Source: Alphaproteobacteria bacterium
GTDB lineage: Bacteria; Pseudomonadota; Alphaproteobacteria; Sphingomonadales; Sphingomonadaceae
Assembly (NCBI GenBank): GCA_030424845.1
Contig: JAUHWC010000002.1
Coordinates: 186,001 to 250,000, forward strand
Direction: 5' to 3'
Length of the DNA stretch: 64,000 bases
This document shows, in pieces, positions 3,241-45,097 of this stretch (positions within the stretch are counted from its first letter, which is position 1; each line of letters starts with the position of its first letter). The position numbers and the translations under genes are program-made. Below the pieces are notes generated by a model, which worked only from the letters and a program-made list of their open reading frames with translations, ran no database searches and was not told where the DNA came from.

Positions 3241-3837
3241 ATGACCACGACAAAGGAACTGGCCGAGCGGATTGACCGGCTGGAAGCACAGGCGCGCAAG
3301 GCGGCAGACTGGGTGGACATCGCCAACCTGCAAGCGGCCTATGGCTACTATGTCGACAAGGGGATGTGGGACAAGGCGGCGGACCTCTTCGCCAGGGATG
3401 GCACGCTGGAGATCGCCGGGCGCGGTGTCTACGTGGGCCAGGACCGGGTGCGGCAGTACCTGCACGAGCTGCCCAGATATGAAGACGGCGCCATCTTCAA
3501 CCACATGCAGTTGCAGCCGGTGATCCACTTCGATGATGACGGCAGCCGCGCCAAGGCCCGCTGGCGCACGCTGATCATGATCGGCTGGATCGGCAAGGAA
3601 GGCCGCTGGGGCGAGGCGACCTACGAGAATGCCTATGTCCGCGAAGGCGGCAAGTGGCGCATCGCCTCACTGCACGGCATCATCAACTTCTATTGCGAAT
3701 ATGACGAAGGCTGGCATCGCGGCGGCGTGCCGCTGTTGCGATCCACCAAGGGGCTGGAACCCGACCTGCCGCAAAGCTTCGAGTACGAGGCCCACCCCAA
3801 GGCGGTGATCGCGCCGTTCCACTACGACGAGGTCTAG
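3241..3837 (+). CDS. nuclear transport factor 2 (SnoaL-like) family protein
   Basis: A 198-residue soluble protein. After a short coiled start (ELAERIDRLEAQARK) it has ADWVDIANLQAAYGYYVDKGMWD, the helix that opens NTF2/SnoaL-like domains, then LFARDGTLEIAGRGVYVGQDRV and later YENAYVREGGKWRIASLHG, the closing strands of the cone-shaped fold. Members are isomerases, dehydratases or hydrolase-like proteins acting on small molecules; the active-site residues do not allow a substrate call. A GGGGAAAC stretch precedes the ATG. The stop codon shares a CTAG with the stop of the convergent TonB receptor. Confidence 0.8.
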   Translation: MTTTKELAERIDRLEAQARKAADWVDIANLQAAYGYYVDKGMWDKAADLFARDGTLEIAGRGVYVGQDRVRQYLHELPRYEDGAIFNHMQLQPVIHFDDDGSRAKARWRTLIMIGWIGKEGRWGEATYENAYVREGGKWRIASLHGIINFYCEYDEGWHRGGVPLLRSTKGLEPDLPQSFEYEAHPKAVIAPFHYDEV

Positions 3838-6047
3838 ATCCTGCTGCGGATGGTCAGGCTGAAGTTGCGGCCTGCCAGCGGCACGAAATCCTTAGTGTAG
3901 CTGGTATGGCGGCGGCCTTCGGCATCGAAGATGTTCTTGGCCTGCAACAGCACCACGATCCGCTGGTCCGCGAAGGGATGGAAATTGGCGGACAGGTTCA
4001 CATGGGTGAAACCGTCGGTGCGTGTTTCATAGGCGGCAATGCGATCCTGCGCGTCGTGCCATTCCACCTCGCCGCGGATATCGACCATGCGTGATTGCCA
4101 TTCCAGGGCGCCCGTCAGGCTCAATGGCGGGATGCGCGGCACGGGGGAGCCATCGTCCAGCGTGGCGCGGATATAGGAACCGCTGATGTCGGCGATAAGG
4201 CCGCCATTGTCGCCATTGTAGAGCGGCACGCTGGCCTCTGCCTCCACGCCGAACCAGTTCGCGCCCTGCTGCTGGAAGGCGAACAGCGGAAGCTCGTCCT
4301 CCTCCAGGCCGGTGTCGGCAAGGTAGATGAAGTTGTCGAACCAGTTCTTGTAGACGGCCAGGCGCATTTCCGCCCCGCCGATGGAGGCATTGGCATAGCC
4401 TTCCAGCCCCCATGCGCTCTCCACCCGCAAGCCCGGATCACCCAGTTCATACTGGCTGGTGGCGATATGCGGACCGTCGGCGAAAAGTTCCTCCGATGCC
4501 GGCGCGCGCTCGGTGTGCGAGACATTGATGCCGGTACGCACGCCAGTGTCCGTGGTGTAGGAAAGGCCGAGCGCACCGGAGAAGGTGTCGAAGTCGCGCT
4601 TCAGCCCCAGGCCGGATGCTTTTTGCGAGGTGCTTTCCCAGCGTGCCCCGGCTTCCGCCTCGAAAGGCCCGCTGCGCAATTCCTGCAGGGTGAACAGCGC
4701 GAATTGGCGTGTCGTGTTGGGCGGTACGAAGGCTTCGGCGCCGATCGCCTCGAAATCGCGGTGGAAGAATTGCGCGCCGGTGGAACCGCGCAGCGTCACG
4801 CTGCCCAGGTCCTGCGGGTTCTGGATCAGTTCGATGCGGCCTTCCACGCCTTCCACGGCGAAGGTGGTGCCCACCTCGTCGCCTTCGAGTTCGACATGGG
4901 TATAGTCCGAATAGCCCCAGCGCGTAGCGATGTTGCCGAACAGTCCCTCGCCCAGGTAGATGTCGCCGCGGAAATCCGCGCGGAACTGCTCGAGGTCGAT
5001 GGAAACGGATTCCTCGCCGTGCTCGTGGCCTTCCTCCTCGTGGTCCTCGTCGCCATGATCATCGTGATCGTCATGATCATCGTGGTCGTCGTGGTCGTCG
5101 TGGTCCTCTTCCTCGCCATGGGCATGGCCGGCACCGGGGGCCAGCGGCACGCCGTAGAGCGTGTCGTAATAGCCGACGGAAAAGCCGAAGCTGGACCGGC
5201 CGGCAAACAGTGTCAGGCCGGTGCCCAGCGACCAGGTCTCGCTTGAACTGTCCGGCAGGATCCCGCGCACATTGGCTGCTTCGAGCAGCTCCTCGCCTTC
5301 CTCGTCATGGCCTTCCTCGAATTCCTCCGCGGCATCGGCCAGGAGGTCAGCCCGCAGGTCATCCGACAAGGCAAAGCCGGCAATCTCCAGGTCATCGGTC
5401 CGGCGATAGGAACCATCGACGTGCCAGACCAGGCTGTTGCCCAGCGCCAGGTCTGCCGCGCCGGCGGCGTTGAACATGTCGCTGGCGGTATCCATGCCCA
5501 CCAGGCCTTCTGCATGGAAGCCGCCGGCAGGGCGCGAACGGGGGATGCGCTTGTCGCGCACGTTCACCGCGCCGCCGATGGCGGAGGAGCCGTAGAGCAG
5601 CACGGCCGGGCCGCGCAGCACTTCGATGGCCTCGGCGGTCATCGGGTCGATCGACACGGCATGGTCGGCACTGGTGTTGGAGGCATCGAGCGAACCCAGT
5701 CCGTCCACCAGCACGCGCACGCGCTCGCCATCGAAGCCGCGCAGGATCGGGCGCGAGGCTCCGGGCGCAAAGCCGCTGGCGGAAACACCGGGCAAACCGG
5801 CGAGCACTTCACCGAGCTGCCCATCCTGGTTGCGGTCCAGCACCTCGCCCGCCACGACCGATGTGCCAGCCAGGAAATCGAGCCGCTCGAGACCGCCAGC
5901 GGTAATGACGATCACATCCTCGTGCGGATCATGGCTATGCGGCAGGTCATCCTCGCCTGGCGCATCCTGCGCAATGGCAGGCGCTGCACCCAGCATGGCA
6001 AGGCTTGCGGCGGACAACAGCAGAACGGCACGATTGCGGATGGACAT
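3834..6047 (-). CDS. TonB-dependent outer-membrane receptor, probable zinc receptor (ZnuD-like)
   Basis: About 737 residues: a signal peptide (MSIRNRAVLLLSAASLAMLG...AIAQ), a plug domain with LAGLPGVSASGFAPGASRPI and VRVLVDGLGS, and a 22-strand-type barrel ending in LTIRSRI. A long surface-loop segment (near residues 320-360) is a run of DDH units plus EEEGHEHGEE, with a second His/Asp patch just after the signal peptide, as in ZnuD zinc receptors. Energy would come from TonB-ExbBD, not in the window. I start at the seventh codon of the listed ORF because the first ATG lies only 7 bases from a candidate Zur operator. Zinc is inferred; copper or nickel is possible. Confidence 0.85.
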   Translation of the reverse strand: MSIRNRAVLLLSAASLAMLGAAPAIAQDAPGEDDLPHSHDPHEDVIVITAGGLERLDFLAGTSVVAGEVLDRNQDGQLGEVLAGLPGVSASGFAPGASRPILRGFDGERVRVLVDGLGSLDASNTSADHAVSIDPMTAEAIEVLRGPAVLLYGSSAIGGAVNVRDKRIPRSRPAGGFHAEGLVGMDTASDMFNAAGAADLALGNSLVWHVDGSYRRTDDLEIAGFALSDDLRADLLADAAEEFEEGHDEEGEELLEAANVRGILPDSSSETWSLGTGLTLFAGRSSFGFSVGYYDTLYGVPLAPGAGHAHGEEEDHDDHDDHDDHDDHDDHGDEDHEEEGHEHGEESVSIDLEQFRADFRGDIYLGEGLFGNIATRWGYSDYTHVELEGDEVGTTFAVEGVEGRIELIQNPQDLGSVTLRGSTGAQFFHRDFEAIGAEAFVPPNTTRQFALFTLQELRSGPFEAEAGARWESTSQKASGLGLKRDFDTFSGALGLSYTTDTGVRTGINVSHTERAPASEELFADGPHIATSQYELGDPGLRVESAWGLEGYANASIGGAEMRLAVYKNWFDNFIYLADTGLEEDELPLFAFQQQGANWFGVEAEASVPLYNGDNGGLIADISGSYIRATLDDGSPVPRIPPLSLTGALEWQSRMVDIRGEVEWHDAQDRIAAYETRTDGFTHVNLSANFHPFADQRIVVLLQAKNIFDAEGRRHTSYTKDFVPLAGRNFSLTIRSRI

Positions 6048-41590: not shown

Positions 41591-42064
41591 ATGCGAACCG
41601 GTTTTTCCTCTCGCGCCGTTGCGCTTGTCTTTGGTGCGGCATCGCTTGGCCTAGCGCCAGGCCTTCATGCGCAGGAGGCCGGGCTTGCTGATCAAATCGC
41701 CCAGGCAATTGAGGCCGGCGATACCGAGGCACTGGGCGCCCTTGTGCCCGGCGGAACCTATCAAGTGGTTGGACCGGACTTTATCGATTCGTCTTTCGAT
41801 CAGTTGCTGCAAGCCGTGGACGGTTGTGACCTTGCAGAGAGCGAGGACATTACCGACCGGATATTCCTCACTTCCGCCGGCTGGTTGTGCACGGGGCAAA
41901 CCATGCCCGATGACGAGTGCTTCACCCTGGGCTATCTGGTGATGGCCATGCGGCAGTCAGACGGGCCCGCCCTCGCATTTACCGAGGCACCGACCTATTC
42001 CTATGAGCGCTGCGGCCAGCCCACCGTGCGCAGCTTCCCGGTTCCCCCGCCTCCTTCGCAATAG
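41591..42064 (+). CDS. small secreted protein of unknown function
   Basis: 157 residues with a Sec signal peptide (MRTGFSSRAVALVFGAASLGLAPGLHAQ). The mature part begins with GLADQIAQAIEAGDTEALGAL, has SSFDQLLQAVDGCDLAESED and three cysteines, and ends in a proline tail. I do not recognise the family; the size and layout are like small periplasmic NTF2-like or DUF proteins. Fourth gene of the sco operon by spacing (4 bases). Confidence 0.6.
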   Translation: MRTGFSSRAVALVFGAASLGLAPGLHAQEAGLADQIAQAIEAGDTEALGALVPGGTYQVVGPDFIDSSFDQLLQAVDGCDLAESEDITDRIFLTSAGWLCTGQTMPDDECFTLGYLVMAMRQSDGPALAFTEAPTYSYERCGQPTVRSFPVPPPPSQ

Positions 42065-42094: not shown

Positions 42095-42137
42095 TTGACT
42101 TTGCACCCAATACTCTTATTTCTGAAATTACAGAAAT
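42095..42137 (+). promoter_or_regulatory. GbsR-gene promoter with palindromic operator
   Basis: TTGACT, a 16-base spacer and TATTTC, with the perfect palindrome ATTTCTG-aaatta-CAGAAAT (42118-42137) covering the -10 box. It ends 12 bases before the regulator start, the layout of autorepression. Confidence 0.7.
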
Positions 42138-42149
42138 TGGAAAAGCGCA

Positions 42150-42695
42150 ATGCGAGTCACCGATATTCCCGAAGCCGAAGCCTTCATCCTCCACTGGGGG
42201 GAGATGGGTTCGCATTGGGGGGTGAACCGCTCGGTCAGCCAGGTGCACGCCCTGCTCTATCTGTCCGACCGCCCGCTGCATGCGGAAGAGATCTGCGAAA
42301 CGCTGGGCCTCGCCCGTTCCAACGTCTCCACCGCACTCAAGGAACTGCAGGGTTACGGCATCATCCGCCGGCAGCACGTGGTGGGTGACAGGCGCGATCA
42401 CTTTGTGGCCGAAACCGATCTGTGGGACATGCTGATGCGCATCACGGCAGAGCGCAAGAAGCGCGAGATCGACCCCACCATAGCCACGCTGGGCGAACTT
42501 GCCGCCAAGCTGGAAGGGCGCAAGGACGTGCCTGCCCATATTCGCGAACGCATTTCCCACATGCATACATTCATCGACAGGCTGGCCACTTGGTATGACG
42601 ACGTGCGCCGCCTGCCCAAGTCCACCCTTGTCACGCTGATGAAGCTGGGCAGCCGCGTTGCGCGCCTGCTTCCGGGCGCCGGCAAGAAGGACTGA
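42150..42695 (+). CDS. GbsR/MarR-type transcriptional regulator
   Basis: 181 residues. FILHWGEMGSHWGVNRSVSQVHALLYLSDRPLHAEEICETLGLARSNVSTALKELQGYGI is a winged helix-turn-helix of the GbsR family; RRQHVVGDRRDHFVAETDLW completes the wing and the C-terminal half is helical for dimerisation. GbsR proteins in Bacillus respond to choline; others have unknown ligands. A palindrome at its own promoter and a matching one before the next gene identify likely targets. Confidence 0.88.
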   Translation: MRVTDIPEAEAFILHWGEMGSHWGVNRSVSQVHALLYLSDRPLHAEEICETLGLARSNVSTALKELQGYGIIRRQHVVGDRRDHFVAETDLWDMLMRITAERKKREIDPTIATLGELAAKLEGRKDVPAHIRERISHMHTFIDRLATWYDDVRRLPKSTLVTLMKLGSRVARLLPGAGKKD

Positions 42696-42759
42696 CACCC
42701 CTCCCCTCCCGCCACTGAAAGGACAATCCAGCAGCATACCGACCCAGTCACAAACAGGA

Positions 42760-42779
42760 ATTTCTGTTTTTACCGAAAT
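42760..42779 (+). promoter_or_regulatory. second copy of the GbsR-type operator
   Basis: ATTTCTG-tttttac-CGAAAT repeats the arms of the palindrome before the regulator gene (ATTTCTGN6CNGAAAT), 14 bases before the start of the small membrane protein. Confidence 0.65.
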
Positions 42780-42793
42780 AACAGGAGGAAATG

Positions 42794-43165
42794 ATGATCG
42801 AAGTAAGCTATGCTCTCTATCTCGTCTTCAGCATCGGCCTGACGGTGTGGGTTGCCCGCACGCTGAGCACCAATGGCGAGATTTTCCTGATCGACTGCTT
42901 CGGCCATGACGAGAAGCTGGCGAGGAGCACCAACCACCTGCTGGTCGTCTGCTTCTACCTCGTGAACCTGGGCTTCATCCTGCTGGCGCTGCAACTCGGC
43001 AAGGAACCGACAAGCGCGCCGGAGGCGATCCGCTTTGTTGCCACCAAGGTGGGTTTGGCCGTGCTGGTGCTGGGCGGATGGCACTTCTTCAACATGCACG
43101 CCATCGCCAAGTTCGGCCGCAAGGTAGGCCGCTGGATCCGCGAAGCCCACGTGCTGAACGGATGA
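42794..43165 (+). CDS. small membrane protein controlled with the GbsR regulator
   Basis: About 123 residues. Two ATGs are adjacent (42791, 42794); AGGAGG ends two bases before the first, so the second is the better start. Three hydrophobic segments (YALYLVFSIGLTVWVA, LLVVCFYLVNLGFILLAL, VGLAVLVLGGWHFFNMHAIAKFG) are interrupted by IFLIDCFGHDEKLARSTNH. I do not recognise a named family, though it looks conserved rather than random. An operator copy upstream makes it the probable target of the neighbouring regulator. Confidence 0.75.
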   Translation: MIEVSYALYLVFSIGLTVWVARTLSTNGEIFLIDCFGHDEKLARSTNHLLVVCFYLVNLGFILLALQLGKEPTSAPEAIRFVATKVGLAVLVLGGWHFFNMHAIAKFGRKVGRWIREAHVLNG

Positions 43166-43246: not shown

Positions 43247-43783
43247 ATGCCAGAAGCGACCCAAAAAGCGATCCGGGCGATGCTGCTGGGCATCCTCGTC
43301 ACGGGCGGACCGTTCATGTTGCTCACCGTCCCCATCGGCCTTGCGATCCTGTTTGGGGACGGCAGGCCGGAGGGTATCGCATTTGCGGCTATGCCCTTGC
43401 TGGTTGCAGGCGTGGGCGTGGTTCCGGCCTTTGTGCTGATAGGCCTGCCACTGACAGCGCTTTATCGCCACCTGAAATGCGAGAGCGTCTTTCTCTATGC
43501 TTGGTCTGGCCTTGCCACCGGAATAGTAGCGCCAGGCCTGCTCATGTTTGCATTGGAAGGACAAAGCGGGCTTGGCTTAGGCATACTGCTATATCCTTTA
43601 GGTGCTTTTGCCGGACTGCTCACTGCCGATTCATGGGGAAGGTGGCGCGTCGAGCAGGCAGAGGCTGAGCGCGACAGCGACGACGAACTTCGCCCCGCCG
43701 CGGGCGTGAGAAATTCCTCTCCTGAACCCAACGGGCTTGCCAAAGCGCGCCTTTGGTGGGAGCCATGGCGTTGGAGGCGGTAA
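43247..43783 (+). CDS. hypothetical integral membrane protein
   Basis: About 178 residues from ATG 43247, behind AAGGAGCGTTG; the listed ORF begins at a TTG two codons earlier. Four hydrophobic segments (MLLGILVTGGPFMLLTVPIGLAIL, AAMPLLVAGVGVVPAFVLIGLPL, YAWSGLATGIVAPGLLMF, GLGILLYPLGAFAGLL) are followed by a charged tail rich in Glu, Arg and Trp. No family is recognised. It lies 81 bases after the GbsR-linked membrane protein on the same strand. Confidence 0.6.
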   Translation: MPEATQKAIRAMLLGILVTGGPFMLLTVPIGLAILFGDGRPEGIAFAAMPLLVAGVGVVPAFVLIGLPLTALYRHLKCESVFLYAWSGLATGIVAPGLLMFALEGQSGLGLGILLYPLGAFAGLLTADSWGRWRVEQAEAERDSDDELRPAAGVRNSSPEPNGLAKARLWWEPWRWRR

Positions 43784-43813: not shown

Positions 43814-45097
43814 ATGACCATGCGGCGCAATTCGCCGGTGCTGGCGCTGGTGGTGCTGGCTGCGATCAGTACGGTGGGCTTTATTGACCGGATCGTGGTC
43901 AATGTGCTGGTGGAGCCGATCAAGACCGAGTTCGGGCTGACAGACGGGCAGGTCTCGCTGATGGCGATGGCCTTCACCGTGCTGAACATCGGGGTGGGCC
44001 TGGTTGTCGCCCGCTTCGCCGAGCGGGTGCGACGGCTGTCGCTGATATCGGTCGGCACCTTGCTGTGGTCCGGCGCGACCGCACTGTGCGGCTGGGCAAC
44101 GGGCTGGATCAACCTGCTGGTGGCGCGGATGGGCGTGGGCCTTGGCGAGGCAATCGGCCTGCCAAGCCTGCAATCGGTGATCGCCGACTACTTTCCTGCA
44201 AACAAGCGCGGCACGGCGATCTCGGTGCTGATGCTCGCGCCGCCCGTCGGTGCCTTCGTCGGCTTCGTGGGCGGCGGCTACATCGCCCAGGAATATGACT
44301 GGCGCTTCACCTTCCTGATCGCGGCCCTTCCGGGCTTCGTGCTGGCAGCAGTGGCGTGGTTCCTGGTGGCAGAACCGAAGCGCGGCGCGCATGACGCGGT
44401 GGCGGACAGCGACGATGTCCCCTCGGTCATGGAAGTGCTCCGGCGGCTGTTTGCACTGCCCAGCGCACGCAACCTGGTGATCGGGTCTGCATTTGCCGCA
44501 ATGCTCGGCTTCGGGGTCAACTACTTCTTCACCTCGCTGATGATGCGCAAGTTCGAGGTCGGGCTGGCGGAAGCAGGGCTGTATTCCGGCCTGATTGCCA
44601 GTGCGCCAGCGGCGCTTTCCGTGGTCATCTCGGGCATGCTGGGAGACAAGCTGGGCGCGAAGAACCCGGCTGCCTATGCGCTGGTTCCTGCCGTCTGCCT
44701 GTTGCTGGGCGGGCCGATCTATGCGCTGGCCATCACGCGGGAGGATCTGGGCGCATTGCTCGGCCTGGTCAGCATCGCCACATTCCTCAACTTCGGCTAT
44801 CTCGGCATCACCTATGCCGCCCTGCAGAACCTGATGCATCCGCGCATGCGCGCCACCTGTTCCGCCGTCCTCAACGTGGTCTACGGCATCGCCAGCGCGC
44901 TGGGACCGATCCTGGTCGGCTATCTGAGCGACGGGTTTGCCGCCAGCCGGGGCGAGATTGACGGATTGGTCCTGGCCATGGCGATCACTGGTGCGCTCTA
45001 TGTCTGGGCAGGCGTGCATTACCTGCTGGCCGCCCGTCGCTACGGGGCGGACCTTGCCCGCACAACAGTGCCAACCTCACCAGCGGCCGAGGGCTAG
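43814..45097 (+). CDS. MFS transporter
   Basis: 427 residues with twelve hydrophobic segments. RIVVNVLVEPIKTEFGLTDGQVSLMAMAFTVLNI and the RFAERVRRL loop (the MFS A motif position) lead the first half; MGVGLGEAIGLPSLQSVIADYFP and RGTAISVLMLAPPVGAFVGFVGGG are the motif C/D areas common in spinster-like and sugar-acid MFS families of sphingomonads. Substrate unknown. It follows the hypothetical membrane gene by 30 bases and ends at a palindromic terminator shared with metK. Confidence 0.9.
   Translation: MTMRRNSPVLALVVLAAISTVGFIDRIVVNVLVEPIKTEFGLTDGQVSLMAMAFTVLNIGVGLVVARFAERVRRLSLISVGTLLWSGATALCGWATGWINLLVARMGVGLGEAIGLPSLQSVIADYFPANKRGTAISVLMLAPPVGAFVGFVGGGYIAQEYDWRFTFLIAALPGFVLAAVAWFLVAEPKRGAHDAVADSDDVPSVMEVLRRLFALPSARNLVIGSAFAAMLGFGVNYFFTSLMMRKFEVGLAEAGLYSGLIASAPAALSVVISGMLGDKLGAKNPAAYALVPAVCLLLGGPIYALAITREDLGALLGLVSIATFLNFGYLGITYAALQNLMHPRMRATCSAVLNVVYGIASALGPILVGYLSDGFAASRGEIDGLVLAMAITGALYVWAGVHYLLAARRYGADLARTTVPTSPAAEG

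Follow-up and report, generated by a model that had tools for sequence, protein, structure and literature searches.

A gene for a GbsR-type regulator and the gene for a small membrane protein that follows it are each preceded by a copy of the same palindrome, in a stretch of 64,000 nucleotides (the window) from a sphingomonad bacterium. The question raised by this locus is whether the two palindromes are operators of the adjacent regulator, which genes would then be under its control, and what that control might serve. The sequence-only reading had taken the palindromes for a matching operator pair, and both sequences were found where it had placed them, in the following arrangement:

42095-42122, plus strand: putative promoter of the regulator gene, TTGACT at 42095-42100, 16 bp, and TATTTC at 42117-42122, overlapping operator 1
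42118-42137, no strand assigned: operator 1, ATTTCTGAAATTACAGAAAT, a perfect palindrome in the regulator promoter
42150-42695, plus strand: REG, a GbsR-type MarR regulator of 181 aa (Pfam MarR_2, 1.5e-11; AlphaFold model nearest to Mj223/1ku9)
42760-42779, no strand assigned: operator 2, ATTTCTGTTTTTACCGAAAT, agreeing at 13/14 arm positions, 11 bp before the MEM ATG
42791-43165, plus strand: MEM, a small membrane protein of 124 aa with three long helices and no Pfam family (67-sequence alignment)
43247-43783, plus strand: MEM3, a fast-evolving polytopic membrane protein of 178 aa, of no family, grouped with MEM in relatives
43814-45097, plus strand: an MFS transporter (Pfam MFS_1, 1.2e-42), a conserved neighbor in the genus

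The locus is bounded by scoB/atoA upstream and by metK downstream on the opposite strand, and its closest named relatives were found in Erythrobacteraceae such as Alteraurantiacibacter aquimixticola. The gene starts proposed earlier for the regulator (42150) and the membrane protein (42791) were correct. REG, which matched Pfam MarR_2 with 44.7 bits against a cutoff of 27, is of an already known regulator kind, the GbsR-type MarR proteins. Its model predicts a winged helix, with a putative recognition helix at residues 56 to 68 in which RSNVS is followed by Thr61 (AlphaFold), and its top match was 1ku9 (Mj223), with E values of 2.4e-21 by profile and 1.4e-9 by Foldseek. MEM was predicted to form three long helices (pLDDT 90), and among its 67 homologues an STNH motif was invariant and HFFNM was near-invariant; the broad phylum samples searched for MEM gave few genomes. 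Its earlier description as a membrane protein of unknown family held, with no Pfam match, a single NCBIfam match far below the cutoff (E 0.06), a best sequence match in the PDB of E 0.009 (part of a rhodopsin), a best fold match there of E 2.1, and no significant match in fold searches of the model against the PDB and viral models. For MEM3, too, no family was found, and the MFS gene scored 146.6 bits with MFS_1 against a gathering score of 33.4. Between scoB and operator 1, positions 41591-42064 encode a secreted-looking protein of 157 aa that belongs to no family, is unmatched in the relatives' loci compared, and is probably lineage-specific.

Both operators consist of 7-base arms flanking a 6-base center. 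Operator 1 (ATTTCTG-N6-CAGAAAT) is a perfect 7+7 inverted repeat, and operator 2 (ATTTCTG-N6-CCGAAAT) is off at 1 of 14 arm positions, with CCGAAAT for CAGAAAT. They end 12 bp before the regulator start and 11 bp before the MEM start, respectively, operator 2 adjoining the MEM ribosome-binding site. With up to three mismatches allowed, the window held 12 matches against 2.6 expected; only the two operators matched the pattern proposed in the sequence-only reading with zero mismatches. When the organism's own genome was scanned by pattern, as had been suggested, they were the sole zero-mismatch sites in the whole 2.83 Mb, and a reversed-pattern control returned 0. A weight matrix was also trained on relatives' loci picked by the MEM protein, the motif not being used, and gave operator 1 a score of 40.3 bits and operator 2 a score of 33.9 bits. 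The next-best site of the window by matrix, at 16.8 bits, was a register shift of operator 1 itself, the best other genomic near-match tested with the matrix reached 15.7 bits, and other genomic sites with one or two mismatches (L003-L007) scored far below both operators. The proposed pair therefore comprised, by a wide margin, the top two sites of the window and the best found in the genome. Frequent occurrence of the motif at unrelated promoters, which had been named as grounds for abandoning the idea, was not observed, as the motif was nearly absent elsewhere. A chance palindrome was rejected from the window scan and the genome scan together with the 401-genome scan described below.

The overlap of operator 1 with the -10 element of the regulator gene, also claimed earlier, is plausible. 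TTGACT and TATTTC occur at 16-bp spacing, and in relatives two bases of the -35 element (T and A) and a T at -1 were mildly conserved. A strict sigma-70 scan found no promoter, so that the promoter is retained as putative.

Conservation was assessed in 58 distinct relatives' loci, chosen without using the motif. All 58 loci had operator 1 upstream of the regulator, with no more than 2 of its 14 arm positions mismatched (0, 1, and 2 mismatches in 31, 26, and 1 loci, respectively), and operator 2 was present with at most 2 mismatches in 49/58 loci and with at most 3 in 56/58. Information content, calculated from the 57 loci alignable at operator 1 and the 56 alignable at operator 2, was 1.63 and 1.40 bits per base, respectively, against 0.20 to 0.28 in the 45-bp flanks, and the operator was the main conserved block of both intergenic regions. 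The spacing between the operators, 600 to 660 bp, equaled one regulator gene. The arms were conserved in sequence and did not covary, a pattern that favors a protein-binding site over an RNA stem.

The earlier placement of MEM in the regulon was supported. As for the two transport-like genes that had been added tentatively to the regulon, MEM3 is very probably a member, encoded in the same operon as MEM, as polytopic proteins like it share MEM's unit, before or after MEM, in 42/67 loci. Coregulation of the MFS gene is uncertain, since this neighbor is conserved only near the genus and its spacing is variable. In a number of MEM3 frames (L079, L084, L085, L088, and others), the operator was found to be read in frame and to translate as ISEITEI. 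Frames taken from the first ATG bear a false conserved N terminus, and the true starts should follow the operator; ISEITEI is thus an annotation trap for the MEM3 family.

The presence of the site was found to track the regulator. Among 37 congeners, 26 had the regulator and MEM, 1 had the regulator alone, 0 had MEM alone, and 10 had neither, for which the Fisher p value of 3e-8 overstates independence because the congeners are related. With one mismatch allowed, the regulator-bearing congeners had one to three matches, mostly at the regulator-MEM locus, and those without the regulator had zero, save three GC-centered ones in two genomes. In one congener (G034) without MEM and operator 2, operator 1 and MEM3 were kept. 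In Alteraurantiacibacter buctensis (L066, 5356-6372), the regulator was only 48% identical and came from a DUF4166-associated clade, the operators were of that clade's type, and MEM was still 84% identical. This locus is best read as a natural swap, in which MEM has come to follow a regulator with matching operators from the DUF4166 clade. In a further locus (L181 of G010, 3473-4560), which adjoins an FAD-linked oxidase gene, the regulator is cut to about its last 45 codons, and the operator and MEM3-MEM-MFS are retained; this unit would be expected to be constitutive. That the sites are the regulator's own operators, as first proposed, was thus borne out by their conservation as isolated blocks, by their presence with the regulator, by their near absence elsewhere in these genomes, and by the match to the CydE footprint considered below.

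The targets of the clade were surveyed in 401 family genomes, which were scanned for exact ATTTCTG-N6-CAGAAAT with a reversed-pattern control. In total, 73 exact copies were detected in 64 genomes (control, 0), and 71 of these lay either beside a regulator of this clade or at one of a small number of target types, namely, MEM with or without MEM3; a DUF4166 gene followed by an oxidoreductase gene of the SDR or saccharopine dehydrogenase type; a membrane fatty acid desaturase; and a membrane-anchored protein that carries a lipid-transfer-like domain (Polyketide_cyc2/SRPBCC). The two copies without the regulator or a known target, one within a coding gene (L242, position 2044, G464) and one in an AT-rich genome (L250, position 2067, G550), are probably due to chance. 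Three genomes had a distant DUF4166 site in addition to the regulator-MEM site (L200/L214, L216/L217, and L220/L221), and four congeners had an additional site directly 5' of a desaturase gene. The desaturase orthologue in a regulator-free congener had no site, and neither did more distant desaturase paralogues. In other sphingomonads, the desaturase lay within the operator-2 unit in three loci of the order regulator-desaturase-MEM (L096, L127, and L128), as did the SRPBCC gene in one of the order regulator-SRPBCC-MEM (L095). Neither site-bearing desaturase type was present in the window genome, and its single FA_desaturase-family gene had no site nearby. Here, therefore, only MEM and MEM3, and perhaps the MFS transporter, would be controlled, and the lipid role is taken from the relatives. 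The regulon in this organism appears to consist of two local promoters only.

MEM homologues were also observed outside the range of the GbsR-type regulator. In Xanthomonadaceae and Undibacterium (L132-L144), none had a GbsR neighbor, an ArsR-type regulator was encoded directly downstream of MEM in 13/13 loci, and several loci had desaturases and an SRPBCC homologue nearby. By their gene content, these loci represent a putative parallel system built on another class of regulator. On a plasmid of the actinobacterium Streptomyces cynarae (L258, 7986-9174), a MEM homologue with 49% identity precedes a DUF393 (DCC1-like) gene, and a protein resembling DUF393 was also encoded near the GbsR-type locus of Cupriavidus (L263).

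We propose with considerable confidence that the locus encodes an autorepressed GbsR-type regulator with a local regulon, the relatives' targets pointing to membrane lipids. Comparison of sequences established the identity of the operators, their linkage to the regulator, the range of targets, and a DNA code like that of CydE; we infer repression rather than activation, as well as binding as a dimer, and the operator positions fit repression of the adjacent operon. A dimeric repressor would bind two copies of one 20-bp palindrome. Binding at operator 1, which overlaps the regulator's own promoter, would lead to autorepression, and operator 2 lies in the expected RNA polymerase binding region in front of the MEM-MEM3 operon. 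The regulator and MEM promoters would both be silent until a ligand released the repressor. Among the relatives, this operator and repressor clade would govern desaturases, SRPBCC proteins, and DUF4166/SDR genes instead of or alongside MEM; the regulon would serve to adjust the lipid composition of the membrane, and MEM would be one of its effectors. A lipid role is the most likely one given these targets, and we regard the case for it as about evenly balanced. As its ligand, REG may bind a lipid or, like CydE and CioR, a small toxic or inorganic signal; the responses of CydE-type relatives to sulfate or cyanide (PMC6096048, PMC11837568) mean that a lipid is not required.

The alternative that survives best retains the same operators and repressor and assigns them to a regulon for respiratory or toxic-compound stress, in which the membrane genes would protect rather than tune lipids. 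The nearest characterized relatives are indeed repressors of cytochrome bd operons, with sulfate or cyanide as their signals, and the CydE-type regulators are 41 to 50% identical to REG over its whole length. However, the clade's relatives carry desaturases, SRPBCC, and SDR/DUF4166 genes and none that is respiratory, and the cydA of the window genome has no such site, which leaves this explanation unlikely, although it deserves to be taken seriously. Clearly less probable is a role for MEM as a sensor that would sequester the repressor at the membrane upon a signal, as in the SdpI/SdpR system of Bacillus, where a membrane protein sequesters the repressor at the membrane when the signal is present. 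A small winged-helix regulator adjoins MEM in nearly every locus seen, being GbsR-type in sphingomonads and ArsR/SdpR-like in all 13 of the xanthomonad and Undibacterium loci; however, MEM is missing from other loci at which members of this regulator family operate (DUF4166, desaturase, and cyd), the conserved core of MEM is kept despite the change of regulator class, and in one MEM locus (L066) the regulator has been swapped for a 48%-identical paralogue. It is very improbable that the sites serve a different regulator or represent an RNA hairpin or a chance repeat. A perfect inverted repeat can form a hairpin, and single such sites can arise randomly in AT-rich DNA (L250), but the arms are conserved by sequence without compensatory change, no T-run follows the site, genomes retain or lose the site together with the regulator, in one locus both have changed type together, and only 2/73 exact sites are unexplained.

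The open-access literature was consulted as well. Four papers there name both GbsR and desaturase, the latter once each. Nothing was found that links GbsR-type regulators to desaturase control or describes DUF4166, nor was anything found on GbsR with operator palindromes or on GbsR in Sphingo-/Novosphingobium. Within that literature, neither the set of targets nor the operator code appears to have been described before. The broader proposition, that a GbsR clade governs an undescribed membrane-lipid regulon, which would include a new membrane-protein family, and shows a Thr/Asn-versus-Met half-site switch, with xanthomonads having a similar gene set beside an ArsR-type protein, is put forward tentatively, its chances falling slightly short of even. 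In a 2018 survey, 73/179 GbsR homologues were without deducible function (PMC6207618). A large proteobacterial GbsR clade now gains an operator, a small coherent target list, and a footprinted relative, and the rarity of the motif makes it usable for target finding genome by genome. The ligand of the clade, the function of the three-helix MEM, and the possible setting of one operator base by one residue are directly testable now.

By profile and by fold, the nearest solved structure to REG is Mj223 of Methanocaldococcus jannaschii (PDB 1ku9), which has been used as the template to model GbsR (PMC6207618) but is archaeal and 29% identical to REG in the fold alignment. GbsR, OpcR, OpuAR, and CudC of Bacillus and Staphylococcus resemble REG in family and in fold and are local repressors of neighboring operons (PMC6207618), as REG is predicted to be. 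These proteins, however, are sensors of choline or glycine betaine that regulate osmoprotectant genes. REG scored 62 bits with the CudC NCBIfam equivalog against a cutoff of 218, and no genes for glycine betaine synthesis or Opu transport were found beside it, its neighbors being scoB, MEM, MEM3, MFS, and metK. On the basis of the sub-cutoff score and the lack of osmoprotectant neighbors, assignment of REG as a choline-sensing GbsR/CudC protein was rejected.

CydE, the GbsR-type repressor of Alishewanella sp. WH16-1, and CioR of Chromobacterium violaceum, for which direct repression of the cytochrome bd operon has been shown (PMC11837568), share with REG the regulator family and, as predicted for REG, an autoregulated operon with the regulator gene first. 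Their targets, in contrast, are oxidase genes, with regulator and oxidase in one operon, whereas the window locus has two operators about 640 bp apart. No cyd gene was present at the locus, and a CydE function by similarity was rejected, the cydA of this genome lying elsewhere without a site. The DNase footprint of CydE is ATTTCAGAAATTTCTGAAAG (PMC6096048), and DNase footprinting with the Alishewanella protein protects TATTTCAGAAATTTCTGAAAGTTCA (PMC6096048). This footprint has the same arm length and 6-bp center as the window operators, a match with a chance probability of 1.5e-5 to 4.5e-5, and differs from the window site at base pair 6/15 and at the last base; base 6 is A in the CydE operator and T in the window operator. 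The CydE operator, ATTTCAG-N6-CTGAAAT, was not matched by the window operators, and the A type was seen at cyd loci. CydE-type loci had this sequence or a near variant together with a recognition helix in which RSNVS is followed by Met, whereas 114 regulators of ATTTCTG type had RSNVS-Thr or RSNVS-Asn. A regulator with IARSNVSM that is 55% identical to that of the window was flanked by A-type operators (L276/L280). It retains the Ala before RSNVS, where CydE proteins have Ser, and the Met position is therefore the better candidate determinant. This correlation of half-site with helix residue, resting on nine A-type examples, suggests a one-residue/one-base code that would distinguish the window clade from CydE, with Thr or Asn specifying ATTTCTG and Met specifying ATTTCAG.
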